DNA of 27,821 nt from a virus. The position numbers and the translations under genes were made by a program. Under the pieces are notes generated by a model. That model did no database searches and was not told the origin of the DNA. It saw only the letters and a list, made by a program, of their open reading frames with translations. The DNA lies in IMG/VR virus record IMGVR_UViG_3300011189_000034, positions 1 to 27,821 of that record; one strand, written 5' to 3'. Below, piece after piece: positions 4,515 to 25,546 of this stretch (positions are counted from its first letter, which is position 1; the number at the start of each line of letters is the position of its first letter).

Positions 4515-4940
4515 TTAAAAATCGTTAAGTGAATTTACTTCGTCAATAGGCTCTTTAATCTCAAAATATCTTCCAAGGATGTGACCCATGTCTTCATATA
4601 AAGCAGTCATGCGTTGTTCTGTAGAATGTGCTTCTTGAGCCAACTTACCAAACTCTTTAGAGAAGTTAGTCAAACTCTTCATATTCTCGTTGATGGTTTT
4701 TTTATCCATCCAATCCTCACCAGCTTCCGATAATGTAATATGAGTAGCAGCTTCAGCTATCTCCCCCAACTGTTTCGCGGTTTCGGTTAGACTACCATCA
4801 CGATTTAAGACCTTTCCAAGCTTGTTGTATTCACCAATCATAGCCAATACCCGTTTCTTTTCTGCGATTGGTAGTTTCTTAATCTCATCAGATTCTCCAG
4901 CCATTTTAAATTCCTTGATTATGTCTTTAAGCTTCTTCAT
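4515..4940 (-). CDS. Small helical head-region protein, unknown function
   Basis: This 141-residue charged protein is predicted to be mostly alpha-helical, with no Cys and no enzyme motif. The N-terminus, MKKLKDIIKEF, contains an I-x-E site at residue 10 and resembles the amphipathic leaders of neighbouring proteins. It lies 18 bases after the upstream scaffold-like gene. Its start is preceded by a TATTTATA box exactly 3 bases before the ATG. It is the last structural gene before the bidirectional terminator. Position next to protease and scaffold suggests a core or head-assembly role, but this is inference from context only. Confidence 0.7.
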   Translation of the reverse strand: MKKLKDIIKEFKMAGESDEIKKLPIAEKKRVLAMIGEYNKLGKVLNRDGSLTETAKQLGEIAEAATHITLSEAGEDWMDKKTINENMKSLTNFSKEFGKLAQEAHSTEQRMTALYEDMGHILGRYFEIKEPIDEVNSLNDF

Positions 4941-4943
4941 GTT

Positions 4944-4951
4944 TATAAATA
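4944..4951 (-). promoter_or_regulatory. TATTTATA box 3 bases before start codon
   Basis: Minus-strand TATTTATA, then AAC, then the ATG at 4940. The whole intergenic gap is only 18 bases. It is one of five exact boxes with identical 3-base spacing in this window; no Shine-Dalgarno sequence is visible. Confidence 0.55.
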
Positions 4952-4958
4952 GTTCGTG

Positions 4959-5951
4959 TTATGAGTTTTTCACCGATTGATCTACATCGTCGTCTGTAGC
5001 AGATGGGATTTGATTTTCAATCTTGTTCATCAACTCAGCAGAACCGTGTAGTGGAATCATTGGTCCCCATTGAGATTTTAGTTTCTCAACACCCTTATCA
5101 TCCAACCGTAATTTAGCAATAAGTTGACCCGCAAGAGCAGATAGTCCGTCAGCATCATCTTGGTATTTATCAAGTAATAGACCTAATAATACAGAAACAC
5201 CTGGACGTGTGAACAACTCAGTTCCGTTAAATTCCTTAGATTTGGCATCAGCCATTTCCCGTTCAGCTTCGGATTTTTCTTTTTCAGCTTTAGCCTTAGC
5301 AGCATCAGCCTCAGCTTCTGCGGCGTCTGCTTCCGCCTCATATTTTTCAGCCTCAGCGTCAGATTTAGCATCCTCAGGGTTAGCATCGCCCATGTCACCC
5401 ATGTCGCCCATAGGATCGCCTCCGTCGCTGCCACCGAGAGGGTCTTCTCCACCTTCTTCGTCACCGGCAAATGGATCCTCCTCCTCTTCCTCATCACCTG
5501 AGAGCGGGTCCGGAGCTTCAAATAACATACGTCCCTGTTTAGCATGAGAAGAGATTTCTTTTAAAATTTGTGAACAAATCTTATCAGCCGATGTTTTACT
5601 CTTCTTAGATTCTTTGAGGTTGTCCAAATTATAATCGGCGGACAACTTCTCTACTACATACTCTTCAATCTTCTCATGATCGTCATCAGGGTGTGCACCG
5701 TTCTCAACGGCAGTTTGTGCGTAGCTTTCAATTCTCTCGATAACTGAATTTGTAACTTCGTTATTACGAGAAACTGACAGTTTCTCAACGATTTGATCCA
5801 ATGTGTATCTGCCTTTGTAAAATTCATTTACTATTGTAGCAGCGACATCTTGTTCTGTAACTTGTGAGTTTACGTTTTCGTTTAACCCTACTCTACCTTT
5901 TGTAGCATGACCTGAGATTTCTTTTACGATGTTTTTTAGTGAAGTGTTCAT
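4959..5951 (-). CDS. Acidic scaffold / prohead core-like protein with duplicated leader motif
   Basis: This 330-residue protein has two halves. The N-terminal helical part (1-120) begins with IVKEISGHATKGR (8-20) and ends its leader at LNE (23-25). A second copy, ILKEISSHAKQGR, occurs at 129-141 and is followed by LFE (143-145). A low-complexity acidic Gly/Asp/Met region (147-195) and an Ala/Glu/Lys helix (196-240) follow, then a globular-looking C-terminus. Acidic composition, helix content and location two positions after the gp21-type protease (a mobile gene lies between) fit a gp22-like core protein. The LxE sites after both copies could be protease cleavage sites. The TATTTATA box here is 23 bases from the ATG instead of 3. 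Assignment is by composition and context. Confidence 0.7.
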   Translation of the reverse strand: MNTSLKNIVKEISGHATKGRVGLNENVNSQVTEQDVAATIVNEFYKGRYTLDQIVEKLSVSRNNEVTNSVIERIESYAQTAVENGAHPDDDHEKIEEYVVEKLSADYNLDNLKESKKSKTSADKICSQILKEISSHAKQGRMLFEAPDPLSGDEEEEEDPFAGDEEGGEDPLGGSDGGDPMGDMGDMGDANPEDAKSDAEAEKYEAEADAAEAEADAAKAKAEKEKSEAEREMADAKSKEFNGTELFTRPGVSVLLGLLLDKYQDDADGLSALAGQLIAKLRLDDKGVEKLKSQWGPMIPLHGSAELMNKIENQIPSATDDDVDQSVKNS

Positions 5952-5987: not shown

Positions 5988-7691
5988 TTATTTAGAAATC
6001 CACTCAAATTTATAGTTTCCACAATCCCATATTTTAGAATAACCATTATTTTTTAAATTGTCTGAGTTAGAAACCATTGGATTATAAGTGTCCAACTTGG
6101 AATTTAGGTTGGATTTTCGGAAACTGAAACGATGTTGGCGGTAATATTTCTTTCGGCTAAAGTACCAATACCCCGGATCGGTATCCGCCAACTTAACCAT
6201 TCCTATATTTAAATACACCCCGCCGGTGAAGTATCGTTTGTCTGAATATGTTACGATACGTGTGGGATTGTAATTTCGAATGAAATGCGTGAATAGTTTA
6301 TTAGCACCACCCACAACTGTTTTAGTTACGCAGTATCTGTATATTTCATATGAATTTGACTTGGAAAACCTATCTCTGCCAAACGTCATAACTGATACTA
6401 GCTCATTGTCATATAATAGACCCAATTTAATCGATGAGTTATCGCTGCCTTGTAGATGATGGCATTTTAAAAAATCGATGCATTGACGAGATGGTATTTC
6501 AGATACAACACAATGTCTTCCATATACAGTATCGGATGATGGTGATATCTGGTTAGTCAATATCAATTTGACAATATCTTTTTTATATAACCATTCATCT
6601 TCAAATATATGAATTAACCGAATGCCTTTCTTTTCACATTCATCAGTTTTATTCAAATGGTAATCACGGAACTTCCCATTTTCCTCTGAATGCCAATATA
6701 ACCCATCACATTCTATCGCTAAGTTAAGTTCGGGTATATAAATATCAAGTTCCAAACCATCTAACATGGTTCGGTCATTCTCATGTATTGTTCCGGTATA
6801 TATAGTTTTAATATAACTGGATACTTCGAGTTCAAAGTTCGACCGGATTCTATAACAAGAAGGACACTTTGGTATGTCACCGTCTTCCAAACAATCGTGG
6901 AAGACCTCACCACAAGAATTACACTCAAATTTATATTCGTTATAATAACCAGAATCCAAATACTCAGTCAATGAAAATTGTGGGGTAGACAATCCGTTTA
7001 ATCGGTCAGATGAAAATAAACTCATATAAAATCGACGGCGAATGGTATCAATCCGTTTTTGTTTAATTGATTTAACTTTTTGTACGTTATCCACTCCATA
7101 TTTCTTTAATACAGATTGTTTTTTATAATATCCATGCAACGGACTTTCTACTCCAATGGAATTCAAACAACTAGACTTCTTTAACTCTTTTATACTTTCT
7201 AACTGAGATATGTTATCAACCCCGTATTTACAATTAACCGTCGTTCTAGATTTCTTCTGAATCGTCTTGTTCGATTGTACATATTCCACACCGTAACGAC
7301 TTAGATTCGTTTGTTTTGTTTTTTCTATAACAGACGCACTTAATTGAGCGCATTTGTTACTACACGACTGTCTGTAACCCTTAGTGTATGATACGAAATT
7401 AACTTGGTTGTCGCAATGCGAACATTTAGGAACAGTATCGGGAGAATATACAATGTGCCATAATCGATTGGCCATAGTCACATTCTCCCCCAAAAACGAA
7501 GTCGATTGTATAATTTTATTATACTGCTCTACGTAGTCGTTTTTCTTAAACCAGTTATATAACCCCCTTTTTGCTGGCAACTTACCGTTTGATATAACAG
7601 TTGATAATATGAAATCTTTCACGTTTTGAAAACTTTGGGTTTGATATTGTATATAACTATCAATTATAAACCCTAGACTCTCATATGTCAC
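5988..7691 (-). CDS. Free-standing homing endonuclease, YGV-repeat / PD-(D/E)xK (Vsr-like) family, copy 3
   Basis: This 567-residue paralogue of the genes at 988 and 2712 lies between the prohead protease and the scaffold-like gene, in the same direction as both. It has a longer N-terminal region with a helix rich in aromatic residues, then a Cys4 motif (C90, C93, C110, C114). It has four repeats (YG or IG at 133, 156, 179 and 198; the last step is shortened to 19). A second Cys4 motif lies at 257-279. The nuclease core has D316 (ELDI), E327 in AIECDG and FEDEW at 363-367. The GNAT-like C-terminal domain and the final IWDCG block are present. The given start is a GTG at 7691; no good in-frame ATG lies close to it, so the true start is uncertain. 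It lies immediately downstream of a strong terminator, so it needs its own promoter or read-through. Confidence 0.78.
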   Translation of the reverse strand: MTYESLGFIIDSYIQYQTQSFQNVKDFILSTVISNGKLPAKRGLYNWFKKNDYVEQYNKIIQSTSFLGENVTMANRLWHIVYSPDTVPKCSHCDNQVNFVSYTKGYRQSCSNKCAQLSASVIEKTKQTNLSRYGVEYVQSNKTIQKKSRTTVNCKYGVDNISQLESIKELKKSSCLNSIGVESPLHGYYKKQSVLKKYGVDNVQKVKSIKQKRIDTIRRRFYMSLFSSDRLNGLSTPQFSLTEYLDSGYYNEYKFECNSCGEVFHDCLEDGDIPKCPSCYRIRSNFELEVSSYIKTIYTGTIHENDRTMLDGLELDIYIPELNLAIECDGLYWHSEENGKFRDYHLNKTDECEKKGIRLIHIFEDEWLYKKDIVKLILTNQISPSSDTVYGRHCVVSEIPSRQCIDFLKCHHLQGSDNSSIKLGLLYDNELVSVMTFGRDRFSKSNSYEIYRYCVTKTVVGGANKLFTHFIRNYNPTRIVTYSDKRYFTGGVYLNIGMVKLADTDPGYWYFSRKKYYRQHRFSFRKSNLNSKLDTYNPMVSNSDNLKNNGYSKIWDCGNYKFEWISK

Positions 7692-7741: not shown

Positions 7742-8365
7742 TTAAATCTCTGATAATATATCTCTTACCAATACTTCAACGTTGTGGTATGGATTTGTTC
7801 GTGGCAATTTTCTTCCTACGGATTCCTTTATTAACGATTCATCCAAACCGGCAGTAGGCGATTGGAAAGCTCCATGGGTTGATGGATTTGAGACGAAATC
7901 AAACGCTAGCAATTCAAAATCTTCTTGAACCATGATAGTTCCATCACCGCTTTCATTTACAGAACCCAATCCTCTCGAAGAGATTCCAAGTTTAACTCCG
8001 CTTTTGAAAAGTTCCTTTAAGATGTTCCCAGCAGGAGTTGTCAAAATTTCACAAGTCCCAATAAGGTCTTTACCTTCCCAATGCATTTCTGTCACTAGGT
8101 GGGAAACATTCTGTAAGCTTACCACCGATGAATCGGGGTGATCTAGTTCACCCATCGCTCTTTTTTGGCCGACGAATTCATCTTGATACTTTCTAGCTTC
8201 CCTCATTAATATAGCATGTGGGTATACTCTACCATTATGATTCTTAGCATCTGAACGTTGTAATATACCTTTAACAGTTAAAGGTTTGTTTAGTGCGAGA
8301 GATTCGTTGATAGCTTGGGGTGATACCTCAAACGGTATCCAATCAATTAGTAAAGACTTGCTCAT
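7742..8365 (-). CDS. Prohead maturation protease, T4 gp21-like
   Basis: This 207-residue protein has the hallmarks of phage prohead serine proteases. Early on it has NGRVYP (44-49), typical of T4-type proteases. The likely catalytic His is H76 in MGELDHP; the likely Ser is S129 or S130 in GISSRG; an acidic partner is D156 in AFDFVSNPS. The family degrades the scaffold and trims head proteins after (L/I)xE-type sites inside the prohead. The size matches gp21 (about 212 residues). It sits between small head genes and the scaffold-like genes, as in T4. The ATG at 8365 is preceded by a TATTTATA box at 3 bases. Assignment from motifs plus order is strong. Confidence 0.92.
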   Translation of the reverse strand: MSKSLLIDWIPFEVSPQAINESLALNKPLTVKGILQRSDAKNHNGRVYPHAILMREARKYQDEFVGQKRAMGELDHPDSSVVSLQNVSHLVTEMHWEGKDLIGTCEILTTPAGNILKELFKSGVKLGISSRGLGSVNESGDGTIMVQEDFELLAFDFVSNPSTHGAFQSPTAGLDESLIKESVGRKLPRTNPYHNVEVLVRDILSEI

Positions 8366-8387: not shown

Positions 8388-8786
8388 TTAAAATTGTTTT
8401 ATTTTATGTTGAGAGGAGTCGGAATTGACAGATTTGTTCTGCATTACGTTAGTTGTAGGCCCTTCCGTGTCATTTTCAATTGATATAGACGATTTTGCGG
8501 TTAAAGCGATCTTATCACCATCCCCCTCCAATATAATGACATATTGGCCTTTAGATTTCACAACTGTAACTTTATTCACTGTAAGAACCTTATTTTTGTG
8601 TGTTACTTCTTTGCCGTTCAATTTCATTTTCATGTCGTTCTCAAACTGTTTGATGGCAGATTTTTCATAGTTAGTAATTGAATCCTGTAACTCCTCTACT
8701 TCAGCCTTCAAAGAAAATTCAACTTGTGAGTTTAGGCTAGGAACCTCTTGCATCATGACTTCGGATATTAATTGTGATAGTTTCAT
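8388..8786 (-). CDS. Small head-region protein, unknown function
   Basis: This 132-residue protein starts MKLSQLISEV, containing an I-x-E site at residue 9, then a helical stretch (20-50). Residues about 55-100 alternate hydrophobic and charged residues like a small beta domain (VLTVNKVTVVKSKGQYVIIL), followed by a polar Asn/Ser tail. Its start overlaps the stop of the upstream gene by 4 bases, so translation is probably coupled. It lies just upstream of the protease, where T4 has small core genes 67 and 68. No homologue is recognised; a core or head role is inferred from position. Confidence 0.7.
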   Translation of the reverse strand: MKLSQLISEVMMQEVPSLNSQVEFSLKAEVEELQDSITNYEKSAIKQFENDMKMKLNGKEVTHKNKVLTVNKVTVVKSKGQYVIILEGDGDKIALTAKSSISIENDTEGPTTNVMQNKSVNSDSSQHKIKQF

Positions 8787-9286
8787 TTTAAATTTTTGGT
8801 TTTTTGGAGTATAGCGGTTGCTGAATTTTGAATTTTTTTTATATCTCTTTCACTTCGTTTCCACAAGTTTGATGATTCGACGCCGGATTCTCGTTTAAGT
8901 CTCAGAGTTATATTCGCCAAGTAGTTGACTTCGTCAAGCATCTTTTTCATCTCACGTATGGTGTAAGATACCTTAGACCTATCCTTCTTATACTTAGAAG
9001 ACTCTCTGAAATTGTAATACCTAGCTCTTGCTTCAGTTAGTTTATCAGGCTCTTCTTCGTCAACAACATTACTTTTTCTGGAGTCGGGGTTAGGCATGCT
9101 ATCTTCAGCAAACTCACCACCCTTCCATGCCGAACCTTTACCTGCGAAAGCATTAGGGGTTTTTATATCACCCGAAGCCGCACCAGCAGAACCGCCAGCA
9201 GAACTAATCTCTTCGATTTGATCTTCTTCAATCAATTCCTCCTTGATTATTTTTTTTATAATAGACTTTAAATCACTTCTATTCAT
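8783..9286 (-). CDS. Helical core-like protein, unknown function
   Basis: This 167-residue protein starts with an amphipathic leader (MNRSDLKSIIKKIIKEELIEE) containing several (L/I)xE sites, followed by a Gly/Ala/Ser-rich linker (28-60) and a charged helical C-terminal half (80-167). The leader resembles those of the proteins at 13248 and 25535. It overlaps the upstream gene by 8 bases and the downstream gene by 4, indicating an operon with coupled translation. A cleaved leader and a role inside the prohead are plausible but rest only on the motif and position. Confidence 0.7.
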   Translation of the reverse strand: MNRSDLKSIIKKIIKEELIEEDQIEEISSAGGSAGAASGDIKTPNAFAGKGSAWKGGEFAEDSMPNPDSRKSNVVDEEEPDKLTEARARYYNFRESSKYKKDRSKVSYTIREMKKMLDEVNYLANITLRLKRESGVESSNLWKRSERDIKKIQNSATAILQKTKNLK

Positions 9287-10197: not shown

Positions 10198-12129
10198 TTA
10201 ATCCTCTAAAATATTACGTTCATCTAACAAAGAACGTTTATTCTTTGAATCTGTTTTGTATTTAGATTTCATCGATCTTAACTCTTCTGATATAGACAAT
10301 CCAATCTTTTTAGTGGCCGGAGTCATCCGTCTATTAAACCTCTCATCTTCATCTTGGTCATGCGGAGACGTTATATCTCGTGACCCATGACCTAAAGCAT
10401 CAGTATCCTTGCCATCATATCCTCTTCTTTTTGAATCGGACCTAACATTAGTTTCCAACCCATAGACATTGTTTAAATGGTTCTCAGAGTCCTCCTGTTC
10501 AGATTTATCACTGTCTCCACGATTGTCTTCGCCTGGCTTTGGGACTTCACCTTCAAACAAATCGCCTCCGAAGTCATCACCCCCGGTATCGCCGAAACCA
10601 CCGCCACCGCCTCCAAATCCACCGGAGAACTCATCGTTATCATCGTTTTCACTGTCGGTGTTCAGCTTCGTTACTTCCGCTGCTGGGTCAGTACCTTCAT
10701 TTTCGATAGTATCCAAACGATATTTAGCTTTATAGTCATCAACAAGTTCGGATTTAATTTTAGAGTAGTCTGCGGGGGATAAGTTGAATACATTCTCATA
10801 AATCCAATCAACGGAGAAGAACTTAGACTCAAACATATCTCTAGCAACACTCATCTTGTCACCCCAAAGAGCAATCTTTTCTTGTTCAAACAATGTGGAT
10901 GGGTTTGTTAAAGTAATTTCAAAGTTGACCATCGCAGCATCTGTAAACCCTTGGACATACAGGTGAAGAATAGCAATTTTTGTTAACTCAGACACGATAA
11001 TATGTTGAATGCGTTGGATCGTCTTTGCAAATCTAACGTCTTGTGCAGCTAATGAAGACTTTTCGCCAATACCTTCATCGTAACCAAGAAACGTCTTTGG
11101 AATTTTAAGAGCCGCCATCATCTTATTTTTGATGTATTCCAAATCGTCAATACCAGTCCACTCAAGACCGCTTAAGTTTTCAATCCGTGTTCCACTGTCA
11201 CCGCCACGGACAGGAAGATAAAAGTCTTCAATCATGTTCTGTAGATTGAATTTCAAGTTGTAATCACCTGTTTGTGGATCGATGTATGGAATCTTCTTCA
11301 TTTGAGATACCATTCTTTCCATGTGAGCGTCAACTTCTGAAGGCGGTATATTACCAATATCAACATAGAAAATTCTACGTTCTGGAGCTCTCATGATACG
11401 ATTTATTAACATCGCGTCCTCCATAAGTGATAATTGTTTCCATACTCTTCTTGCACCTTCTATCTGAGATTTTCCATATGGAAGAAAGTTAGAGTCGGAT
11501 AACAATCTAAAGTGACCCATTTCAAAATTTTCATATTCAGCACCACCAAATGAACCATCGTGTTGAAATTTCACATAATTCTTGTTCTCAGGGTCAATTC
11601 CTTCGATACGTGTAACTTCATATGCACTTAATGGTTCTACCATGAAGATGCCGTATTCAGGGGAAATATCCATCTTGAGGAAAAAATCCCCGTATTTACA
11701 CATGTTACGAGTCCAACTCCATAAGTTGAATTCGATGTTTAAAATTTCGTAAAATAGGTTATCAAGGATGGCTTTAATGTTATCATCCTCCGAACGGATA
11801 GTTAAAACCTCACCCATTTCATTCTTTGTAGTACACTCATCCGCATAGATATCGAGGGCACTCGACAGAATCGGGTCCATATCCATAACGTCATAATCTC
11901 GGAACAACTCTAATCTACTAGCTTGATATGCCATAGACATATCTCTATTATGAAGATTATAAGTCGAACTACGAAGTCGGTTGAACCGATCACGCATTGA
12001 ATTGCGGTCAGTTGCATACTGGATCTTGTTTGTGTCAACTACCTTCAATTTTTTCCCGCCGACATTGCGAATAACAACATCGGTTGAAAATAACTTCTTC
12101 AACCTTTTAAATACACTTATATCAGCCAT
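10198..12129 (-). CDS. Portal protein, T4 gp20-like, with extended acidic C-terminus
   Basis: This 643-residue protein forms the dodecameric DNA entry ring at the head vertex. Typical T4-type portal blocks are visible: YRDYDxMDxDP-like FRDYDVMDMDPILSSALD (76-93), DECTT, the LPYGKSQIEGARRVWKQL region (about 215-235) and APERRIFYVD. A conserved IENLSGLEWTGIDDLEYIK block is followed by an ALKIPKTFLGYDEG block and the long crown/stem helices. It is about 120 residues longer than T4 gp20. The excess is a Gly/Asp-rich tail from about residue 490, with a poly-Gly/Phe stretch near 500-525 and then polar charged sequence. The start overlaps the end of the GIY-YIG gene by 8 bases. A GGAG 7 bases before the ATG is a plausible ribosome site, lying inside the endonuclease coding sequence. 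Confidence 0.92.
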   Translation of the reverse strand: MADISVFKRLKKLFSTDVVIRNVGGKKLKVVDTNKIQYATDRNSMRDRFNRLRSSTYNLHNRDMSMAYQASRLELFRDYDVMDMDPILSSALDIYADECTTKNEMGEVLTIRSEDDNIKAILDNLFYEILNIEFNLWSWTRNMCKYGDFFLKMDISPEYGIFMVEPLSAYEVTRIEGIDPENKNYVKFQHDGSFGGAEYENFEMGHFRLLSDSNFLPYGKSQIEGARRVWKQLSLMEDAMLINRIMRAPERRIFYVDIGNIPPSEVDAHMERMVSQMKKIPYIDPQTGDYNLKFNLQNMIEDFYLPVRGGDSGTRIENLSGLEWTGIDDLEYIKNKMMAALKIPKTFLGYDEGIGEKSSLAAQDVRFAKTIQRIQHIIVSELTKIAILHLYVQGFTDAAMVNFEITLTNPSTLFEQEKIALWGDKMSVARDMFESKFFSVDWIYENVFNLSPADYSKIKSELVDDYKAKYRLDTIENEGTDPAAEVTKLNTDSENDDNDEFSGGFGGGGGGFGDTGGDDFGGDLFEGEVPKPGEDNRGDSDKSEQEDSENHLNNVYGLETNVRSDSKRRGYDGKDTDALGHGSRDITSPHDQDEDERFNRRMTPATKKIGLSISEELRSMKSKYKTDSKNKRSLLDERNILED

Positions 12130-12901
12130 TTACATACTCCCACCTTAAATTATATGCGTGTGGTCTGTGACCCGCGACACATCTAGAAACTACTTTATAT
12201 GAGTAGTCATTTACATCACTAGCTTCTCTAATTGAATTGTATACTGTAACTTCTCCGTTTTTATCTATACTTTTAACTTTAGACACCCGCGTCAAACCGT
12301 TCTTCAGACTCTTAAAATTTGGGGCGACTTGTATATTATTAGGAAAATCGTATTTATAACAAAATCCAAAACCCTTAACGTTTGTATATTTTTTATTTTT
12401 CTTACAACATTGAGTTATGTTAGACTGACATATACCGGAAAACAACTCCCTAGCAGCCTCACTAGCAGAACCCCACTCATGTATTAAATTTCCCGTTTTT
12501 ATATCATATTGACAAATGGGCTTTGTTACTTTCGGATTACCCATCATTGACTTTGAGATTCTTTTTTTTACGTGGTCGGGCATCGGCGATGATTCAAAGT
12601 TGGAATATACCTTATTATATCCAAAGTTCTCATTCAATGAATTGTTCAAGTCTATGTGGTAATCCTCCCTATCTTTGCAGTTATTCTTACCCGTAACATC
12701 GGATTCTACAACACAGAATTTAAAATTTTCTTTTCCGTGTTTGTTATACGCCCGTTGTAAATGATCGTTGTCGTGGACATTGGCCTTCAATTTCCACCGG
12801 TGAGTCTTCCACCTATTCTTATAACTTATAGAACTTCCAATGTAAACCTTTCGGTCAATCTCATTCTGTATTTTGTAAATCGTATATTTTCTATTTTCCA
12901 T
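12122..12901 (-). CDS. GIY-YIG homing endonuclease (free-standing)
   Basis: This 259-residue protein has an N-terminal GIY-YIG nuclease domain (1-100): TIY at 7-9, YIGSS at 20-24, conserved R30 and H34, and E79 in the REDYHID block. A NUMOD3-like KKRISKSMMGN (112-122) follows, then two NUMOD1/IENR-type DNA-binding modules (about 129-183 and 206-256). These enzymes cut intron- or gene-less alleles and spread themselves by recombination. It is inserted between the small gene at 13248 and the portal; its last codons overlap the portal start. No Shine-Dalgarno or TATTTATA box precedes its ATG. Confidence 0.9.
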   Translation of the reverse strand: MENRKYTIYKIQNEIDRKVYIGSSISYKNRWKTHRWKLKANVHDNDHLQRAYNKHGKENFKFCVVESDVTGKNNCKDREDYHIDLNNSLNENFGYNKVYSNFESSPMPDHVKKRISKSMMGNPKVTKPICQYDIKTGNLIHEWGSASEAARELFSGICQSNITQCCKKNKKYTNVKGFGFCYKYDFPNNIQVAPNFKSLKNGLTRVSKVKSIDKNGEVTVYNSIREASDVNDYSYKVVSRCVAGHRPHAYNLRWEYVNG

Positions 12902-12912
12902 AACTTTTTATG

Positions 12913-13248
12913 TTAGAATCCCATACCAGCATCGGCATCTTTCCCAACATTACCTTCTTTTCTTGATTGATTAATTTTGTGGTTGATAATCTTCTCTTCT
13001 TGATCCAACTTCTTTTTGTTGGAACGGACATGATTTTCAATTTTATTCAACACGTTCCTTTTTGATCGTATAAATTCTTTTTGTAGTTTTAATTTATCAA
13101 ATCCCTCCGCATTCTCCATCGCTTCGCGTTTAGCGGTTGCATCATTCTTAGCATTTGTAAGAGCGGATGACGTTTCAGCAACATCTTCACAGATGTTTTT
13201 AATCTCTTCTCTAATAATCTGTCTAATGAGTGTTTCGGTGTTGTCCAT
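12913..13248 (-). CDS. Small coiled-coil protein between terminase and portal
   Basis: This 111-residue protein is almost all helix and rich in Lys, Glu and Asn. Residues 30-95 have a coiled-coil-like heptad pattern. It starts with the amphipathic leader LIRQIIREEIKNICED (7-22), similar to those of the proteins starting at 9286 and 25535. It begins 29 bases after the terminase C-part stop and 3 bases after a TATTTATA box. Function is unknown. Position suggests a head or packaging accessory role. The downstream neighbour is the mobile GIY-YIG gene, which probably separated it from the portal. Confidence 0.65.
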   Translation of the reverse strand: MDNTETLIRQIIREEIKNICEDVAETSSALTNAKNDATAKREAMENAEGFDKLKLQKEFIRSKRNVLNKIENHVRSNKKKLDQEEKIINHKINQSRKEGNVGKDADAGMGF

Positions 13249-13277: not shown

Positions 13278-14489
13278 CTACCGAATTAACCACCGAAGAT
13301 CCTGAACTTCTTTACTACTCACTTGTTGTTTATAAGGGTCATGTGTAGGAGATCCTGGTTGTCTAAAACCTGGCATGTTAGTGGATGAGTATATTCCATT
13401 CTCTTCAAACCCAGATTTCTTTATTCCCGCCAAAGCTTGTCTCTGTAGATCCATCCCCTTTTGACGTAACATTAATGCTGTATCTCGTACCCACAAACCA
13501 ATTCCCAACGCAATTGTTAAGTCATCATTATAACCGTCTGCTGCTTGGGCTTTACCGTTTTTCCAAATGAATGTCATTAGCTCATTTATGGTTCTCATCG
13601 ATTGTATGATAACACCCTTGTCCATGAAATATAAATCGATTTTAGATATCACCAGCGGTCTTGTTCGTGATGACATAGTAAACCCAGCAGTAGCTCTTTT
13701 TGATTTGGCGTTCCACTTGTTAGTATATTGATTTTCCATATCAACATATTTCAAATCATCATCCATATAAAATAGATTTTGATATCCTCTATCTAATATC
13801 TGTTGAATAACTGCCCAACCAATGTTAGAATTTTCAACAATTAATAAAGCGTTATTCCACTCTGTAGCCACTTGTACTAACAAATTACCAAAGTCCTTTG
13901 TTTCCAACTTACCTCTGTATTCAGCAACTTGTGTCATACTCTCAATTTCCAAAACGTGAAATGTAGAAAAGTCTTCTCCATCACCACGCGAAACGTCGGC
14001 ACTTACAACATATGTTTTTGAGTAGTCAGGAAACGCCCACGTCCAATAATTTGTGTCAAATCCTCTTTTTTCTACAGGTGCTTTAACGAAATTTTCTTCG
14101 TAATATTTCAAAGTCTCCAATGGAACAACTGAGTTACCAGACGAAACAAACGAACAATTATGAGATACTATTCCATCTACGTAAAAAATATTATTTGTTC
14201 CGACGTTGAGTATATCGTATAACACAATATCAGAGTCGAATTTTTCGATGTGTGTGATTGATATGACATCCCCCGATTCGGACCATAATTCATCTCCGAT
14301 TTTTAATACATCGGCATGTATAATTCCTTTACTACTCATAAACGGGTGAGTATCCGAACATTTTATAGTTTTGTCGGTGGATAAGGTTATCGCATAATAC
14401 GAATTCAGGGTCAACTTACGAATGCCCGAAAAAGGTTCATATCCAGACGGAGTATAGATTTCGTATCTAAAATTTTTCTTGAGTTTCAT
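13278..14489 (-). CDS. terL: Large terminase C-terminal part fused to split-intein C fragment (trans-splicing)
   Basis: This 403-residue ORF has two parts. Residues 1-111 are the C-terminal fragment of a split intein: IKCSDTHPF (42-50) is block B with the TxxH-type histidine, and YDILNV with GIVSHN (106-111) forms the C-terminal splice block. C112 is the +1 residue. Residues 112-403 are the terminase nuclease domain, beginning CSFVSSGNS. Acidic residues that fit an RNase H-like nuclease are D165 in SADVSRGD, E219 in LIVENSNIG and D322/D323 in GYNDDLT. The ORF starts 14 bases after the stop of the terminase N part and in a different frame, with no clear ribosome site. The spliced extein sequence ...QECD joined to CSFVSSG... 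matches a normal large terminase. Catalytic roles follow from T4 gp17 family knowledge. Confidence 0.93.
   Translation of the reverse strand: MKLKKNFRYEIYTPSGYEPFSGIRKLTLNSYYAITLSTDKTIKCSDTHPFMSSKGIIHADVLKIGDELWSESGDVISITHIEKFDSDIVLYDILNVGTNNIFYVDGIVSHNCSFVSSGNSVVPLETLKYYEENFVKAPVEKRGFDTNYWTWAFPDYSKTYVVSADVSRGDGEDFSTFHVLEIESMTQVAEYRGKLETKDFGNLLVQVATEWNNALLIVENSNIGWAVIQQILDRGYQNLFYMDDDLKYVDMENQYTNKWNAKSKRATAGFTMSSRTRPLVISKIDLYFMDKGVIIQSMRTINELMTFIWKNGKAQAADGYNDDLTIALGIGLWVRDTALMLRQKGMDLQRQALAGIKKSGFEENGIYSSTNMPGFRQPGSPTHDPYKQQVSSKEVQDLRWLIR
14157..14489 (-). other. Split intein, C fragment (111 residues)
   Basis: It covers codons 1-111 of the C-part ORF, from its ATG to the Asn before C112. 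Block B (SDTHPF) and block F/G (ending GIVSHN, +1 Cys) are intact. Length and sequence layout resemble the atypically split TerL inteins known from aquatic metagenomes, whose C fragment is about 104 residues. It contains no endonuclease domain. Confidence 0.92.
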
Positions 14490-14503: not shown

Positions 14504-16702
14504 TTATAACACTTCGTATAGATTTTCCAAAGAAATATACATTTCTTCTTTGTTTACGATATCATACACTTTTACCTTAGAAACCCCCCACAGACAATCA
14601 CATTCTTGAGCAGCAGCTTGCTTGCCCAATAATACGTCCTGGTCATCTCTCCAAACTTGATCGTATTCAGGGTGTCCTGACCAGTGAAGTTTAATCGTAT
14701 TGAATGACTGAATTCCCTCTTCCGAATCCTTCCACATCCGATAGAACCAATTGCCCATACCATTTGGAGTCTGGTGACCGACAATGCCATTATAAACCAC
14801 AGAATGACACCACCTATCATCGAAATCATCTGGAAGGGAAAAGTCATATGTAAGCGACTTCGATTCTGTAATAGTTTTTATTTTTTCCCATACTATATTA
14901 TGTGAAATTATAGATTCCCAGTATTCAAAATCTTCGTCTGATAATAACTCACCATATAAATCAAACATCTGATTCACCAATTCCTGAGAAACATTCTCAG
15001 ATTTGCAGGGAGTCGATTTACTCACTATTGAATTTAAAAATATATTATGTCGTTTCTGAATCGAATGTGTAGTCTCACCTGAAAGCTCGAATAATGTCTT
15101 CACCAACTCAACGGAGTTTGGTATTATATTCAAATTACAATGGCGGGTTGATTGCTGTATACAGTCGTTGAAATATACACGTTTTCGATCCAAATTAAAT
15201 CCGATCAAATTATGAAATTTTATAGAATTCTTACCATATATTTCAATACGGTGAACGTCGTGATTAGTTTTTATATCACCCCCGTATGAATTCATCTGAT
15301 CCTTTGTGTAGTGATACCTACTCGTAAGAATCCCGAAATTGTTTAAAATCATCCGAGTCTTATCGATCAGAATTGAGGAACTTGATGTGTAATTAATCGA
15401 TTGAGAATCACATCCACCATCACCATCGAACATCCCCTTCAACACCCATCTAATTTTATCTCGGGAAAACGATAGTATTTTGGTTGTCAAATCTTTCCGA
15501 TTCGACTTATGGGATAAATCAAATCCTAAATATTCCAGAAATTCTAACAAATTTTTACATGACACGGAGTAATGCATGCCATCATCACTTCTCCACGGCA
15601 AACCAAGAGAATCGAATACCCACGAAATATCGTCTCCGCATGTAATTGTTAAACTTCCGCCGTTAGAATTAACATTTTTATATGTAGACCCCTCAGAAAT
15701 ATATAACCCGATTAGATAACACAATTCATTGGATAACGTATCGGGTTTAAACGGAATTCGTATCTTAGAAGAAACTGTAGGTTGAAAGTCTGAAATGTCA
15801 TCGTTATTACCCCATATATTTTGTCCATATTGGATACTAACATAGTCATCGGTAGTCAACTCATCCGATCTAAACCAACCAAATTCATTTAATTTTGATG
15901 AAAATGCCCACAACTTGTGATTGAAACTACACTCAAGATCCGTGGATTTAGTAGTTATCTTCTTCGTATCAACCAACCCATTATTATGAATTAGATTTCC
16001 AGTACGCAAACGATTTACCCCGAGTATATTATATGGAGTTACATTGTATCCACCTGACAATTCATAATTTACAAAATCTTTTACCTGGCGAATACCTTTA
16101 TCGGTAAACACGAACGTATCGTCGGTAACACATGATAATATAATAGCGTTACCACCACCGTGCATCATAGCGGATTGAACAGAAGTCCAAATATCACTGA
16201 TTTGGTCAATGAAAGCAGCTTCGTCTACTATAAGAAGTGACAAAGCTTCCGAACGACCGGCATCACCACTAGCAGAAACAGCTTTAATTTGAGACCCGTT
16301 TGAAAGTCTTAAACTCGTTCTGTTGTTTTCAATTTCACGTTCTTTCATCCATGATGGAAGGTTGTCATTAGCGAACCGAACTTTTGTTACCATGTTTTTA
16401 GCAACGTCTTGTTTAGTAGCAATAACAAGAACAGATTTGTCTTTATGAAACACCATCAACCACAAAGAATAAGCAGCGGTCAAAGTTGAAATGCCCATCT
16501 GTCGGCATTTTAGAATAATGTTTTTCGGGTTGTCTTTAAAATCTCGTATACACTCTTCTTGGAATGGGTATAACTTGAAAGGTATAGTACCTTTCTTAGG
16601 GTGCTGAATTTTTACATACTTCTTCATGAAGTATACTGGATCAGTAGCACACTTCAAATATTCTGCTTTAATAGCAGACTTTATCTCTGACGAACTAGCC
16701 AT
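14504..16702 (-). CDS. terL: Large terminase N-terminal part with an in-frame intein and a split-intein N fragment
   Basis: This 732-residue ORF contains, in order: the terminase ATPase extein (1-190), a full intein (191-644), a second extein (645-702) and a 30-residue split-intein N fragment (703-732). ATPase motifs are a Walker A-like KCRQMGIST (65-73, lacking the usual GK Lys), Walker B LLIVDEAAF (156-164) and motif III ILS joined across the intein to TPNGMG. The enzyme cuts and pumps DNA into the prohead through the portal. After both splicing events the protein would be about 540 residues (190+58+292), close to the family size (T4 gp17 is 610). It overlaps the upstream zinc-ribbon gene by 8 bases. 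A simple frameshift error is unlikely because both break points are exact intein junctions. Confidence 0.94.
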   Translation of the reverse strand: MASSSEIKSAIKAEYLKCATDPVYFMKKYVKIQHPKKGTIPFKLYPFQEECIRDFKDNPKNIILKCRQMGISTLTAAYSLWLMVFHKDKSVLVIATKQDVAKNMVTKVRFANDNLPSWMKEREIENNRTSLRLSNGSQIKAVSASGDAGRSEALSLLIVDEAAFIDQISDIWTSVQSAMMHGGGNAIILSCVTDDTFVFTDKGIRQVKDFVNYELSGGYNVTPYNILGVNRLRTGNLIHNNGLVDTKKITTKSTDLECSFNHKLWAFSSKLNEFGWFRSDELTTDDYVSIQYGQNIWGNNDDISDFQPTVSSKIRIPFKPDTLSNELCYLIGLYISEGSTYKNVNSNGGSLTITCGDDISWVFDSLGLPWRSDDGMHYSVSCKNLLEFLEYLGFDLSHKSNRKDLTTKILSFSRDKIRWVLKGMFDGDGGCDSQSINYTSSSSILIDKTRMILNNFGILTSRYHYTKDQMNSYGGDIKTNHDVHRIEIYGKNSIKFHNLIGFNLDRKRVYFNDCIQQSTRHCNLNIIPNSVELVKTLFELSGETTHSIQKRHNIFLNSIVSKSTPCKSENVSQELVNQMFDLYGELLSDEDFEYWESIISHNIVWEKIKTITESKSLTYDFSLPDDFDDRWCHSVVYNGIVGHQTPNGMGNWFYRMWKDSEEGIQSFNTIKLHWSGHPEYDQVWRDDQDVLLGKQAAAQECDCLWGVSKVKVYDIVNKEEMYISLENLYEVL
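14507..14596 (-). other. Split intein, N fragment (30 residues)
   Basis: It covers codons 703-732 of the N-part ORF, starting CLWGVSKVKVYD and ending LENLYEVL before the TAA. The first residue Cys and the short block-A pattern C-(V/L)-(Y/W)-G resemble the roughly 25-residue N fragment of the known AceL-TerL intein. The preceding extein residues are QECD. C701 is an alternative first residue but fits less well. Confidence 0.9.
14771..16132 (-). other. Full-length intein with LAGLIDADG endonuclease in terminase motif III
   Basis: This 454-residue intein runs from C191 to Q644, with T645 as the +1 residue. Block A is CVTDDTFVFTDKG, block B is CSFNHKLW (258-265) and the C-terminal blocks are LTYDFSLP and VVYNGIVGHQ. 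The two LAGLIDADG helices are LCYLIGLYISEGS (327-339) and RWVLKGMFDGDGG (418-430), with acidic residues E337 and D426/D428 at the active-site positions. The last residue is Gln instead of the usual Asn, a known minority form, and the nucleophile is Thr. Insertion is exactly between Ser and Thr-Pro of terminase motif III. The endonuclease looks intact. Confidence 0.92.
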
Positions 16703-17384: not shown

Positions 17385-18419
17385 TTAGTCTCCGTTAATC
17401 ATTTTATTCTTTGGAGTGTTGTTAACTTCTTTTATATTGGAATTTGTAAGTTGTTTAGCTCTTGATAATCCGCCATTTCCAGGTGGATTCTTAAATGGTG
17501 TATGTACCGCAACCTTTGATGGGTCTATGTGGCTACCATCGCCCATATTTCCGCTCTGAGTGTCATAGTCACTACCATCATTTGGTGTTATATGGTCTGA
17601 AAAGCCTGATGTTGTATGTAATACATATTCTAGGTATAACTTATCAATTTCATTGTATGTCTGTATAAGACGCTTAGCATCTTCTTCTATAATCGAGAAA
17701 CTGCCGTTGTCTTCCCCTACATTTCCATAAACAAACTCAGGTTCGAAGTAATCCATCAAATAGGTATAACCACTGTTTTCGGAACGTAGTTTGGAGAATT
17801 TATAGTATCCCTCAACACTAGCGAACGGCGACAGTTCTGTTGTCCCTCCATTTACAAGGCCAGTAGCATTAGACTCTGACAGTATTTTCTTTATTTTAGA
17901 TTCGTTCCGTGAGATGAATTCACACAATCTCTTTTTTTTTAAGTTCTTAGATACTAAATCTCTAATCTTTTGTCGGTAACTGAATTCTTCACATATTTGA
18001 CCCGACGTATCCATAAATGTCGTATCGTCATCTAAAGTAACAGAAACCTCTTCATTTCCACTTGTACCATCGATGTAATCGACGACCTCATATCCAATTT
18101 TGTCTGCCATATCTTGGTTCTTAGAAGCCCAACTATCAGATTGTGCGTCATCAATGTTGTTACTTACAAAAGAGGAAGCTTCAGGGGAAGCGTCCAAGAA
18201 GGACGTGATTGAAGGTTCGTCTAAAACACCTGACAACTTCTGAATCGCAGGAACTGACGAAACTGAAAGAAGTTTCTTTAAAACGTCCGATTCGTTTAAT
18301 TTTCTGCCTAAAGGATAATTGTCTTTATTATCCGTTGAAGTTGAATCCAGTGGTTCAGAATATTCATCCTCTTCTAAGAAAGGTGCTGTGATTGATTCTA
18401 CTAATGCGTTGATATCCAT
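17385..18419 (-). CDS. Acidic structural-region protein, unknown function
   Basis: This 344-residue protein is not recognised. It is rich in Asp, Ser and Asn. The N-terminus (MDINALVESITAPFLEEDE) carries LVE and LEE sites that would fit the prohead-protease consensus. A basic helical block (about 150-185, with KKKRLCEF and KIKKIL) lies mid-protein. The last 60 residues are Gly/Asn/Pro-rich and look disordered. There are no membrane segments or enzyme motifs. It lies between the long tail protein and the candidate small terminase, and its start is 3 bases after a TATTTATA box. A neck, head-completion or internal head protein are all possible. Confidence 0.6.
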   Translation of the reverse strand: MDINALVESITAPFLEEDEYSEPLDSTSTDNKDNYPLGRKLNESDVLKKLLSVSSVPAIQKLSGVLDEPSITSFLDASPEASSFVSNNIDDAQSDSWASKNQDMADKIGYEVVDYIDGTSGNEEVSVTLDDDTTFMDTSGQICEEFSYRQKIRDLVSKNLKKKRLCEFISRNESKIKKILSESNATGLVNGGTTELSPFASVEGYYKFSKLRSENSGYTYLMDYFEPEFVYGNVGEDNGSFSIIEEDAKRLIQTYNEIDKLYLEYVLHTTSGFSDHITPNDGSDYDTQSGNMGDGSHIDPSKVAVHTPFKNPPGNGGLSRAKQLTNSNIKEVNNTPKNKMINGD

Positions 18420-21998: not shown

Positions 21999-24900
21999 TT
22001 AATTTAACTCAGATGGAACTTCGGTTGGGGTTTTTCGTCTTCCAATAATCTCAGAATACTTTTCTTTAATATCAGGCAACAAAGCTTTATACTTGAACTC
22101 ATCCGATTTTAGTTTGTTCGCTAGCTTCTCAAATGAATTTATATCATCCCATGTTACGTCGCCATCAAACAAAAACTCAGAAATTTTATCAGCGTTATCT
22201 TCAATCGCGTGATAAATCTTTTCTTTAGCTTTAAGCTTCTGACCCTTCTTTCCGAACTTGGGTTTTTCAATGCCCGTTTGGAACCCATGTTTAAAATTGA
22301 TAGTCCAACGATTCGTAATATCTGGATCGTCAGTCTCTTCTTTTATAACACCAAAGATAGCAATCAACAGTTCGTTTCTAAAAGATGCCTTGTATTTGCT
22401 ATCGTGTGGGGCTCCAGACAAAGCCTTCTTCATGAACTTCGGGTTTCCAAACATCAAATCAACTTGGATAATTGCTGGTTCATCTGAAATAACTTTACCT
22501 GTTTCATCTATCGCCGGCTGAGGATTTCCCTTTTGGTCAAATACAGGAGTTGATACGCTAATCTGACTTAGGCCGGGTTGTATATTAACATCTAATTCTG
22601 AGTTAGCAAAATATTCTTTCAACTTAGAAAACAATAATGCGTTTGTCTTTTTAATATCTTCGGCTGGTTCAACGCCTAACTTCTGTAAAACCTTTTTTGT
22701 GTCAATACCCACATCAACATCTCCTGAATATGGTTTTACGCTTCCTACCTTGATAAAGTCTACGTCTTCAAATCCAATGTTTGATAACAGGTTTTCAATA
22801 GTTGGTTTGAAATACTCGTTGTTTAACGCTGAGTTGTTGGATACAGCAGTGTGTTCGCCAACTTCTTTCAGAATAGAATCGGAATATCCTTTTATAGTAT
22901 TCATCTGATTGGTCACAGATTCACTGCCCTTTAGTTCTGCGAACTTATCTAAATATACATCGTATGTTGATTTAAAACTTGACATAAACTCATCATATGA
23001 CATTCCATCTGGCAAACCATCATGTTCTGCCAACGATTTCACCATACCCACCACCCCTTTGAGAAGCGTTCGAATTCTTACATCTTCAGATGGAATTCCC
23101 GAAATTTCCAGCTTTACATCTTCACCTGTGAAGAATTCCACGATGTCTTGAAACATCGTATCGGGATTGTCGCTTATAGTTTTCCACGTTCCTTTCTTAC
23201 GTGACCCTACAATTTCTCCAGTATCGTTTAATTTCACTCTGGCACCGTTCCATTGTAAGTTAACACCTAACAAATCTGAGATGGTGGAGTATATCTTACC
23301 AATAAATGCTCCCTTGAAACCTGGCTCAGCACGGCCTCTCGCCTGTGACCACCTAGCGAACTGAACAGTAGTATAAAAGAATTCTACTTCCGCCGTCTTG
23401 CCGTTTACTTTAAAGAATGAACGTATGCCGTTGGTGTTCTCAGAATCAACGTTCTTGTTTTGACCCGATTGAATAAACTGTTTTAATTCCTTTCGGTATG
23501 GTTGACTATCCTCAGATGGAACAGGGAAGTTGAAATCTAAATCTCCAGCAATATCTTGCTTTCCGACTGATACATTATGGCCTGATCCGTGTGGGGTTAT
23601 ATATTTTGATATGACCTCATCAGGAATAGGTTCCAGTTCGGTGTTGTTCTTCAAATGTTCGTTGAATTGAAGAACCATCTCTTTTACCATCTTCAATAAC
23701 TTTGTAACATCATCACGGTTTAGTGAGTCCGCCTGCCCAGTTGACTCATTTAACAAACGATTCTGGATAGCGTCAACAACGGCCTCTTCACCCTTAGACT
23801 TCAAAAGTCTTTCAATTTTCTCAATGGTATTCTTTCGAAGTTCAATATCACGATACGTGTCTTCACGTTTCTTTTCGTTAGTTACTTGATTTGGGTTTTG
23901 TAAAAAATCTTTTTCACTGCTGTCTACGACAGCTTTGAAATCAGCTAAGGCCATTTTCAACTGTGAAGGGTCTTTCTTCACCGTTCTCTTGAACTTAGCG
24001 TTAGCTGTGCTCATAGCGTCAATGAATTTCCAAAAATCTTTCTTCCGTTTTAAGAATAAGTCTTTGTCAACAATCTTAACCATGTCGCCTTTAGGTGTAT
24101 AAAAAATCAATCCCTCTGTTTCGTTACCGAATGCTTTATCGAAGTCAGCTTTCAATACATGGCCTTTTACTTTCTGACCAATCGTACTTACAAGTTCCTT
24201 GACGTGTTTTCTAGCTGCTACATCAACTCTCTTCCGACTTTTAGAATTTAAAATATTTCCCTTGTCTCTTATCAACGCTTCCAAGTCTATAATAAACTTC
24301 TGTGGAATCTCAATGTGGTCGGTATCAGGCCGTGGGTTAGCAAAGAACTTAATCTTAGTTGGTTTGCTAAGGGCAGAAGCGAGCTTGTCTGACAAGCCAT
24401 CCCCTTTGTCTATTTTTATCTTCTTGTCATCAATTTCAATGTTAAACATAACAATGATACCATCTTTGATTATCTTTGGATCGTATACAATAGCATTGTG
24501 ATTATAAAACGGGATGGATTCCGATTCGATGAGGAAGTTCTGTGTGTTTTTGAAACCGAGTTCCTTTAATATAGAAGAGAAATCGATTTGGCTTAAAACC
24601 TCATAGAACTCTCTAAAGTCGTCAAAGAAATACAAGTCAGGATAATCATCTTTAGATAATCGTTCGCCGCCTTGGTCTAATGTAAAGAACTTACCATCCT
24701 TCAACCCAAACTTATAAAAATGACCATCTACCTTTTCATTTACGACCAAACCTTTATCATGTGCGCCAAACAATTTTAAGAAATCCAATAACTGTTCCGC
24801 TGACAAATCTTCGATGTGTTTGACGAATCCAAATTGACCTCCTTCATTCAACTGTTCTGGCGAATCAACACCAAGAGCTTTTTGTAATATGGAATATACC

Positions 24901-25535
24901 TTTTGATTTACACCTGCGTTGAAAATAGCTTTGAACTTCTTCTCAACATCCATGTTAGGATTCTTCAAGACTTCTCTTGACTTGGTTCCACTCATTGTAC
25001 GTGGTAACTGAAACTTATATGGAAGTCCAGACCAAAATACGTTCTTGGGTACTGATGTAACCGTTTCTAAATTTGATGCACGTTGTTGTATGTCATCTTC
25101 TCCATATCCAACTACCAACGCAAAATCGTCAATGTCAAATCCAGACTTGGATATAATCTCAGCCATCCATTCAGACGGTTTTGGTTCTGGTTTGTTGTGT
25201 CGAGTGAAATACGGATTTGCTGGGCCTCTAGCTTCTATAATGTTTTGTTCGGGTATTCCAAACATAGTTTTCATTATGTATTTCTTCGCTGAAAACGGAA
25301 GCGGATCTTTAGGATCTAACTTCTTAGGGTTCGTTGTGACAATATAAGTATTTTCAACCCCAGCATTAGACGATTGGACTAGTTCTCTGTATGCCTTGTA
25401 GTGACCTCTGTGAAAAGGTTGAAATCTGCCTGGAAGTATAGCTATGACGTTATCAGTCTTTTTTGTACCCTCCGACAATCTATTTTTTATAGATTCTTTT
25501 AAAAGTTGTCTAATTTGTTTAACGCATTCTTCCAT
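21999..25535 (-). CDS. Four-module nucleotidyltransferase/ligase-like protein
   Basis: This 1178-residue protein has four modules. (1) Residues 29-215 form a cytidylyltransferase/NMN-adenylyltransferase-like domain with GRFQPFHRGH (HxGH at 42-45), MKTMFGIP and MSGTKSR (181-187, the SxTxxR-type block). (2) Residues 240-510 form an ATP-dependent ligase-like nucleotidyltransferase domain with EKVDG (nucleophile K268), GERLS (290-294), FLIE (334-337), EGLIF (474-478) and MVKIVDK (485-491). (3) Residues 605-870 are pol-beta-type, with GSG at 650-652, GDLDF (D665, D667) and a possible third carboxylate E716/E718. (4) Residues 880-1178 are a second pol-beta-type domain, with GS 931-932, GDVDV (D939, D941) and D1026 in QVDLMFG. 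Active-site residues look intact in all four. The leader MEECVKQIRQLLKES ends in LSE (20-22). Likely chemistry is nucleic-acid end repair, ligation or nucleotidylation; substrates are unknown. Confidence 0.82.
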   Translation of the reverse strand: MEECVKQIRQLLKESIKNRLSEGTKKTDNVIAILPGRFQPFHRGHYKAYRELVQSSNAGVENTYIVTTNPKKLDPKDPLPFSAKKYIMKTMFGIPEQNIIEARGPANPYFTRHNKPEPKPSEWMAEIISKSGFDIDDFALVVGYGEDDIQQRASNLETVTSVPKNVFWSGLPYKFQLPRTMSGTKSREVLKNPNMDVEKKFKAIFNAGVNQKVYSILQKALGVDSPEQLNEGGQFGFVKHIEDLSAEQLLDFLKLFGAHDKGLVVNEKVDGHFYKFGLKDGKFFTLDQGGERLSKDDYPDLYFFDDFREFYEVLSQIDFSSILKELGFKNTQNFLIESESIPFYNHNAIVYDPKIIKDGIIVMFNIEIDDKKIKIDKGDGLSDKLASALSKPTKIKFFANPRPDTDHIEIPQKFIIDLEALIRDKGNILNSKSRKRVDVAARKHVKELVSTIGQKVKGHVLKADFDKAFGNETEGLIFYTPKGDMVKIVDKDLFLKRKKDFWKFIDAMSTANAKFKRTVKKDPSQLKMALADFKAVVDSSEKDFLQNPNQVTNEKKREDTYRDIELRKNTIEKIERLLKSKGEEAVVDAIQNRLLNESTGQADSLNRDDVTKLLKMVKEMVLQFNEHLKNNTELEPIPDEVISKYITPHGSGHNVSVGKQDIAGDLDFNFPVPSEDSQPYRKELKQFIQSGQNKNVDSENTNGIRSFFKVNGKTAEVEFFYTTVQFARWSQARGRAEPGFKGAFIGKIYSTISDLLGVNLQWNGARVKLNDTGEIVGSRKKGTWKTISDNPDTMFQDIVEFFTGEDVKLEISGIPSEDVRIRTLLKGVVGMVKSLAEHDGLPDGMSYDEFMSSFKSTYDVYLDKFAELKGSESVTNQMNTIKGYSDSILKEVGEHTAVSNNSALNNEYFKPTIENLLSNIGFEDVDFIKVGSVKPYSGDVDVGIDTKKVLQKLGVEPAEDIKKTNALLFSKLKEYFANSELDVNIQPGLSQISVSTPVFDQKGNPQPAIDETGKVISDEPAIIQVDLMFGNPKFMKKALSGAPHDSKYKASFRNELLIAIFGVIKEETDDPDITNRWTINFKHGFQTGIEKPKFGKKGQKLKAKEKIYHAIEDNADKISEFLFDGDVTWDDINSFEKLANKLKSDEFKYKALLPDIKEKYSEIIGRRKTPTEVPSELN

Positions 25536-25538
25536 GCG

Positions 25539-25546
25539 TATAAATA
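25539..25546 (-). promoter_or_regulatory. TATTTATA box 3 bases before start codon
   Basis: Minus-strand TATTTATA, then CGC, then the ATG at 25535. The whole 17-base gap, CGTATATATTTATACGC, is close to an inverted repeat (CGTATA/TATACG). Confidence 0.55.

Follow-up and report, generated by a model that had tools for sequence, protein, structure and literature searches.

The enzyme of 1178 residues encoded in this 27.8-kb IMG/VR fragment of a T4-like phage (the window, which means the whole stretch of DNA analysed here) begins with a short helix ahead of its first domain. This raises the question of whether the helix is a capsid-targeting leader that brings the enzyme into the phage head, and in which form the enzyme would be carried there.

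Genome context of the enzyme gene

On the minus strand, the genes follow in the order of SMC-like gene, enzyme, fibre-like gene, two genes, large terminase (TerL), portal, three small genes, gp21-like protease, two core-type genes and scaffold-like gene, with several homing endonucleases interspersed. The order of the T4-like head module (portal, core genes, gp21, scaffold-like gene) is present, the capsid gene being beyond the contig end, and the enzyme gene is located upstream of the terminase, as in relatives.

We found the element TATTTATA in gene sense at window positions 4944, 5975, 8369, 10177, 13252, 18423 and 25539. It lies exactly 3 nt before the ATG of the enzyme, gp21, 13248, 4940 and 18419 genes (numbers denote gene starts), and 22-23 nt before the start in two of the seven cases. 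The gap is mostly 3 nt in genome G001 too and often 4 nt in genome G003. Generally, the element is common ahead of the head and tail genes of relatives, and the other orientation is rare (199 vs 31). This shared upstream element places the enzyme among the late genes. TATTTATA looks like a late-promoter variant, perhaps with nearly leaderless transcripts.

TerL apparently lies in two genes (window 14504-16702 and 13278-14489). The first ORF contains a complete intein-like insert and its end resembles the N-terminal half of a second intein, and the next ORF begins with the matching C-terminal half (...IVSHNC), an arrangement that points to a split TerL intein. The closest relative (L189:8909-13947) has a gene of homing-endonuclease type between the two TerL parts. 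Besides, the head cluster of the window is broken up by four genes, of which three are large, similar and homing-endonuclease-like and one is GIY-YIG-like (988-2667, 2712-4490, 5988-7691 and 12122-12901).

Table 1. Features of the window discussed in the text; the arrow in a site marks the predicted cut.
Feature	Position	Strand	Evidence or remark
1178-aa fused enzyme	21999..25535	-	NMNAT/cytidylyltransferase-like + RNA-ligase-like + nucleotidyltransferase-like A + nucleotidyltransferase-like B
Enzyme leader, residues 1-23, MEECVKQIRQLLKESIKNRLSE↓G	25467..25535	-	Amphipathic helix; LKE14 and LSE22↓G23
NMNAT/cytidylyltransferase-like domain, GRFQPFHRGH, ~residues 28-225	24861..25454	-	phrog_395 3e-8, phrog_3041 1e-7; L197/L202 orthologues
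Putative protease site LNE231↓GG, NMNAT-like/ligase-like junction	24843..24851	-	[LI]xE↓GG in 28/34 fused Mel-JY01-type relatives
RNA-ligase-like domain, NEKVDG motif I, EGLIF, VKIVDK, ~residues 232-597	23745..24842	-	Motifs; low-probability alignment to Mel-JY01 type; Mel-JY01-type fold
Putative protease site LNE597↓S	23745..23753	-	Where free ligase genes of relatives end
Nucleotidyltransferase-like domain A, ~residues 598-891	22863..23744	-	26% to free gene in L202, 24% to one in L197
Putative protease site LKE891↓V	22863..22871	-	Matches predicted leader cleavage site of free domain-B gene
Nucleotidyltransferase-like domain B, GSVKPYSGDVDV, residues 892-1178	22002..22862	-	33% to free leader-bearing genes in L197 and L202
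TATTTATA element, 3 nt ahead of enzyme ATG	25539..25546	-	Same distance before gp21, 13248, 18419, 4940
Leader LEE17↓D of protein 17385-18419	18369..18419	-	Homologue in closest relative begins MEQSELTRFLTAPFLDE↓D
Leader ICE21↓D of 111-aa protein 12913-13248	13186..13248	-	Sequence and strict/loose motif scan
Leader IEE26↓ISS of core protein 8783-9286	9209..9286	-	T4 gp67/68 position; site kept in nearly all 36 homologues
Leader ISE9↓V of protein 8388-8786	8760..8786	-	T4 gp67/68 position; loose motif only
gp21-like S77 prohead protease, own N-terminal site INE21↓S	7742..8365	-	Peptidase_S77 PF03420, E=1.8e-28; phrog_207 4e-50
Leader LNE25↓N of core protein 4959-5951	5877..5951	-	
Leader IKE10↓F of core protein 4515-4940	4911..4940	-	

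The leader of the enzyme

As the preliminary description had stated, the enzyme ORF starts with a leader that is followed by Gly (Table 1). It is a strongly amphipathic 22-residue helix which ends in LSE22↓G directly ahead of the mature domain, and its helical hydrophobic moment is the highest among all 14-residue windows of the enzyme. It turned out that, of 18 distinct contexts of enzyme relatives, 15 have an (L/I/V/F)xE site 10-13 residues ahead of GRFQP, and this site is also kept in relatives with the domain inside a longer protein. The leaders of relatives from uncultured phages are of several types, such as MNRLVKQLITPFITE↓Q, MLGDWLAEQILSE↓S and MKKLTEWLVKPFLKE↓D, and the relative in Mel-JY01 has the leader MGKLINILLSELRLHIFSE↓D.

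The helix could also be an ordinary N-terminal part of the folded enzyme, or an oligomerisation helix, without any packaging role. AlphaFold2 predicts a helix at residues 2-22 with low confidence (the full-length model, with mean pLDDT of 49, is too poor for use), and TerL provides a case in which such an N-terminal helix can be part of the fold. However, the leaders of the enzyme orthologues vary in sequence and length, are absent in some of them, and the same kind is common to unrelated proteins, which leaves this explanation highly improbable.

Enzyme relatives without a leader are found in three related sequences (L064, L069 and G003), and the jumbo phages RaK2 and Paride have leaderless enzyme homologues, yet both encode an S77 protease. 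Packaging is therefore not universal for the enzyme family. RaK2 and Paride had been considered as S77-less negative controls and were dropped from this role because both encode S77; they count only as leaderless homologues.

Leaders on other proteins of the window

The five other leaders claimed earlier (at 13248, 9286, 5951, 4940 and 8786) are all present as quoted; those at 9286 and 4940 appear with the first ATG as start, and homologues back both starts. A seventh leader protein had been overlooked (18419..17385, MDINALVESITAPFLEE↓D). The six leader proteins listed earlier, the enzyme included, are not all unrelated cargo: the 9286 and 8786 genes are flanked by portal and protease, the place of core genes 67 and 68 in T4, and the 5951 and 4940 genes come after the protease and ahead of the scaffold-like 805 gene. 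In the family of the 9286 core protein, leaders differ in length and sequence, and xxE↓(A/M/I)(S/T) stands before the mature part in nearly all 36 homologues. A site kept despite divergent leaders is what one would expect where processing takes place.

The core protein of 4959-5951 contains two copies of a leader-like segment, LKNIVKEISGHATKGR and SQILKEISSHAKQGRMLFE, one of them further inside, which looks like a duplication. Four proteins of the phage immuto share a second leader type, FDLKKFLVENKLTxNSKLLxE (L082, L164-L170; immuto 1803, 103806, 117631 and 118632).

Enrichment of the leader motif at N-termini

We defined a strict motif, [LI][KR].[IL][IVL][KR]E. In the window, it occurs at 5 of 21 N-termini and in none of 592 internal windows, a figure which is partly circular since these sequences had served to define the motif; the fair test is provided by the relatives. 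For the genes of 80 related gp21 loci, the strict motif was found at 60 of 851 N-termini and in 13 of 14,027 internal windows, which makes it about 80 times commoner at N-termini in a set whose members are phylogenetically related, not independent, and which includes the TerL family. The comparison of leaders across related phages, which the preliminary description had proposed, came out as enrichment of the motif at N-termini with the site position kept.

When the proteins were clustered by their mature part, this kind of leader was found on about 40 otherwise unrelated protein families. A leader common to otherwise unrelated proteins of one phage is seen in the window, in immuto, and in L197 and L203. 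The N-terminal helix of TerL, which is not regarded as a packaged protein, matches the motif as well and belongs to its fold. The motif alone is therefore no proof of targeting. The scan of N-termini also returned T4 gp24 (MAKINELLRE↓STT), a known gp21 substrate, from which a propeptide of 10-20 residues is taken off by gp21 (PMC5694885). A simple hydrophobic-helix regular expression (pattern B) showed little enrichment and was dropped.

Such leaders might also be an artefact of composition in AT-rich phages with K/E/I/L-rich N-termini, and loose forms of the motif do occur in about 1 to 2% of control N-termini and internal windows. In contrast, the strict motif was found at 0 of 229 N-termini in two AT-rich control phages, Twort and phage 11b, the counts in the relatives are far apart between N-termini and internal windows, and the position of the site is conserved although the leaders diverge. 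An artefact of this kind is thus extremely improbable. An S77 protease was not found in Twort or phage 11b by a search which had no positive control of its own.

Prohead protease and expected cleavage specificity

The presence of a gp21-like protease, which had been read from the locus before, is confirmed by matches to the S77 family (Table 1), and its closest cultured relatives are those of Microcystis phage Mel-JY01 (56%) and Flavobacterium phage immuto (47%). For T4 gp21, the cut is made directly behind L/I-x-E (PMC9026906). In the clade of the window, [ILV]xE↓[SAL] is found at the same place in the protease's own N-terminus (63 of 63 homologues), and the capsid proteins have (V/I)xE↓A close to where the T4 site lies. 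From these sites, a specificity of (I/L/V)xE↓(S/A) is expected.

Domain composition of the enzyme

By its domain signatures, the enzyme is a fusion of NMNAT, RNA-ligase-like and two nucleotidyltransferase-like domains, which is new in this analysis. For the first domain, profile matches were obtained to two phage cytidyltransferase families, phrog_395 and phrog_3041, and these include the nucleotide-binding motif GRFxP..xGH; NMNAT matches are otherwise weak, and the domain is under the cut-off of Pfam PF01467. In the ligase-like domain, the motifs KxDG (NEKVDG) and EGxxF (EGLIF) are seen, and its profile link to the Mel-JY01-type domain is weak. For the latter (model with pLDDT of 85), RNA ligases rank highest by structure (Naegleria ligase, Z 8.2; T4 Rnl1, Z 7.6), compared with up to 6.7 for DNA ligases of other viruses and 5.4 and lower for cellular and T4/T7 DNA ligases. 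A PDB sequence search with the ligase domain gave no convincing match. A Pol-beta-type motif, G[SG]..DxD, is visible in the nucleotidyltransferase-like sequence, for which the full-length model is too poor to show the fold.

Neither the whole enzyme nor its C-terminal half gave matches as query among viral contigs, and only the ligase segment reached the split orthologues. In two contexts (L130 and L161), a zeta-toxin/AAA_33-type kinase domain stands ahead of the same NMNAT-ligase pair, with one leader. For suspected ART-like sequences among the tagged proteins, Pfam gave no ADP-ribosyltransferase identification.

Sites at the domain junctions and split relatives

There are (L/I)xE sites at all three domain junctions of the enzyme, two of which coincide with natural gene ends of free relatives. 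A few uncultured phages (L197-L203) encode the closest counterparts of the enzyme as three genes side by side, with an NMNAT-ligase matching at 35% along some 600 residues, a domain-B gene at 33% and a domain-A gene at 24-26%. The free NMNAT-ligase and the free domain B each have their own leader, with the ends LLE↓D and LLLE↓GG, and the free domain-A gene is without leader. The fused version and split, separately tagged versions thus both occur in related phages. For the Mel-JY01-type family, 28 of the 34 fused contexts and 28 of the 30 others have [LI]xE↓GG at the NMNAT/ligase junction, and the remaining 8 of 64 junctions have M in place of E.

Since (L/I)xE sites also stand at the three junctions, several pieces are expected and not one product. 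The single product starting at G23, which the preliminary description had predicted, is probably not the final form. The site pattern suggests that the enzyme is likely a packaged polyprotein cut by gp21, and we regard its processing as plausible, though with some reserve.

The leader could instead package the enzyme and be removed, while the enzyme stays whole and its internal (L/I)xE sites are chance or structural. The enzyme contains 16 (L/I)xE triplets, most of them away from the junctions, and LL[LI]xGG at the ligase N-terminus is kept even where Glu is lost, so that part of the conservation at the ligase junction may be structural. Against this, random placement would put sites at all three junctions with P of about 7e-4 (the windows were set after inspection), two of the junction sites are natural gene ends of free proteins, and the residues just past the ligase site are disordered in the Mel-JY01-type model. 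An enzyme which stays whole seems to us a somewhat doubtful outcome, if a serious one.

Virion evidence from relatives

Cytidylyltransferase/NMNAT-like proteins were detected by mass spectrometry in virions of S-SM1, S-SZBM1, S-CREM2, S-SCSM1 and S-CBWM1 (PMC3037559, PMC9146016, PMC10665884, PMC9602691). The two of these proteins whose N-termini were checked start with T4-like leaders, MKNFSSFLTE↓A (S-CREM2) and MRFRQFIIE↓A (S-SZBM1), and other family members start alike, such as MKKFSAFLSE↓A in Syn9 and P-RSM1. By sequence, the cyanophage leaders of this T4 type (MKxFxxFLxE) are distinct from the window leaders. In S-CREM2, 5 of 8 leader-matching genes are among the 52 published virion proteins (Fisher P 0.008, with the pattern set after seeing the list), including SAM hydrolase, kinase and cytidylyltransferase. 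Its authors point out that they could not rule out contamination of their CsCl preparation. Published virion proteomics was not found for immuto or Mel-JY01.

Another S-CREM2 virion protein (OR473000, 7704-10313; L233) is annotated as CRISPR-Cas9 nuclease and has RFASFMAE↓A about 17 residues in; the annotated start codon may be too far upstream.

The virion data also bear on the possibility that the helix is a scaffold tether for assembly only, and that the enzyme exits or is degraded before DNA packaging, like T4 core proteins. There is a precedent in T4, whose gp22, gp67 and gp68 are degraded (PMC9958956), and several leader proteins of the window are located at T4 core-gene positions. However, the NMNAT relatives persist in mature purified virions, and large folded enzymes should escape less easily than small peptides, which makes a role as tether only improbable.

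As for packaging of the enzyme by a T4-style propeptide, the claim of the preliminary description is well supported by comparison, through modular leaders which end at the right site and tagged relatives in virions. On these grounds we consider it quite probable that the leader is a T4-type capsid-targeting propeptide and that the enzyme is packaged. Injection of the enzyme into the host, also put forward there, goes further than these data reach and is an inference.

Proposed mechanism and its meaning

In the proposed mechanism, the amphipathic N-terminal helix would dock the enzyme on the prohead scaffold core late in infection, alongside core proteins with similar helices. The gp21-like protease would cut after (L/I)xE and free the enzyme inside the head and, given the sites at the three junctions, would probably split the fusion into the NMNAT-like, the RNA-ligase-like and two nucleotidyltransferase parts. 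The pieces would remain in the head and be delivered to the host together with the DNA; once there, they may act early in infection by repairing cut RNA or restoring NAD. Such RNA repair or NAD restoration may be a reasonable guess for the role of the enzyme, as far as its domains tell. The complete scenario, in which a single leader brings a four-enzyme polyprotein into the prohead, the protease splits it and the parts are injected as a ready-made RNA-repair/NAD kit, is offered tentatively.

If true, a readable sequence tag would predict the head cargo of T4-like marine and freshwater phages, the polyprotein would be a new way of loading several enzymes by one tag, and the cargo would point to a defensive role, early in infection, against RNA- or NAD-directed attacks by the host. 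Besides, NMNAT-like proteins and kinases have been repeatedly seen in cyanophage virions with no import mechanism stated in the available portions of the reports, and the leader offers a possible one.

Comparison with known systems

Similar to the capsid-targeting sequences of T4, which are found on internal proteins and Alt and are removed by gp21, the leaders here are N-terminal propeptides of about 10-20 residues ending in (L/I)xE, and the two systems also share the S77 protease, a late gene cluster and enzyme cargo (Alt in T4). Unlike in T4, the leaders are found on many proteins of an uncultured clade with a sequence unlike IPIII, and one of them heads a four-domain fusion with further sites inside.

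The virion cytidylyltransferase/NMNAT proteins of cyanophages (T4-GC190) have a phrog_395-type first domain and an (L/I)xE leader as well, and are virion-detected, but they are of 286-392 aa and without the ligase and nucleotidyltransferase parts; no leader is reported in the available portions of the cyanophage papers. The ejection proteins of SPN3US and phiKZ are alike in that propeptides are cut after x-x-E by a distant gp21 relative and many of the proteins are ejected, whereas their propeptides are mostly of more than 100 residues with the motif AxE or SxE. As far as the consulted portions of the literature describe them, polyvalent proteins of phages and conjugative elements carry no CTS-type leader; they resemble the enzyme in having several enzyme domains per polypeptide and in being thought to be packaged and injected, but their processing is thought to be done by their own peptidase domains and not by a prohead protease. 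In kind, the proposed system is a variant of T4 capsid targeting.
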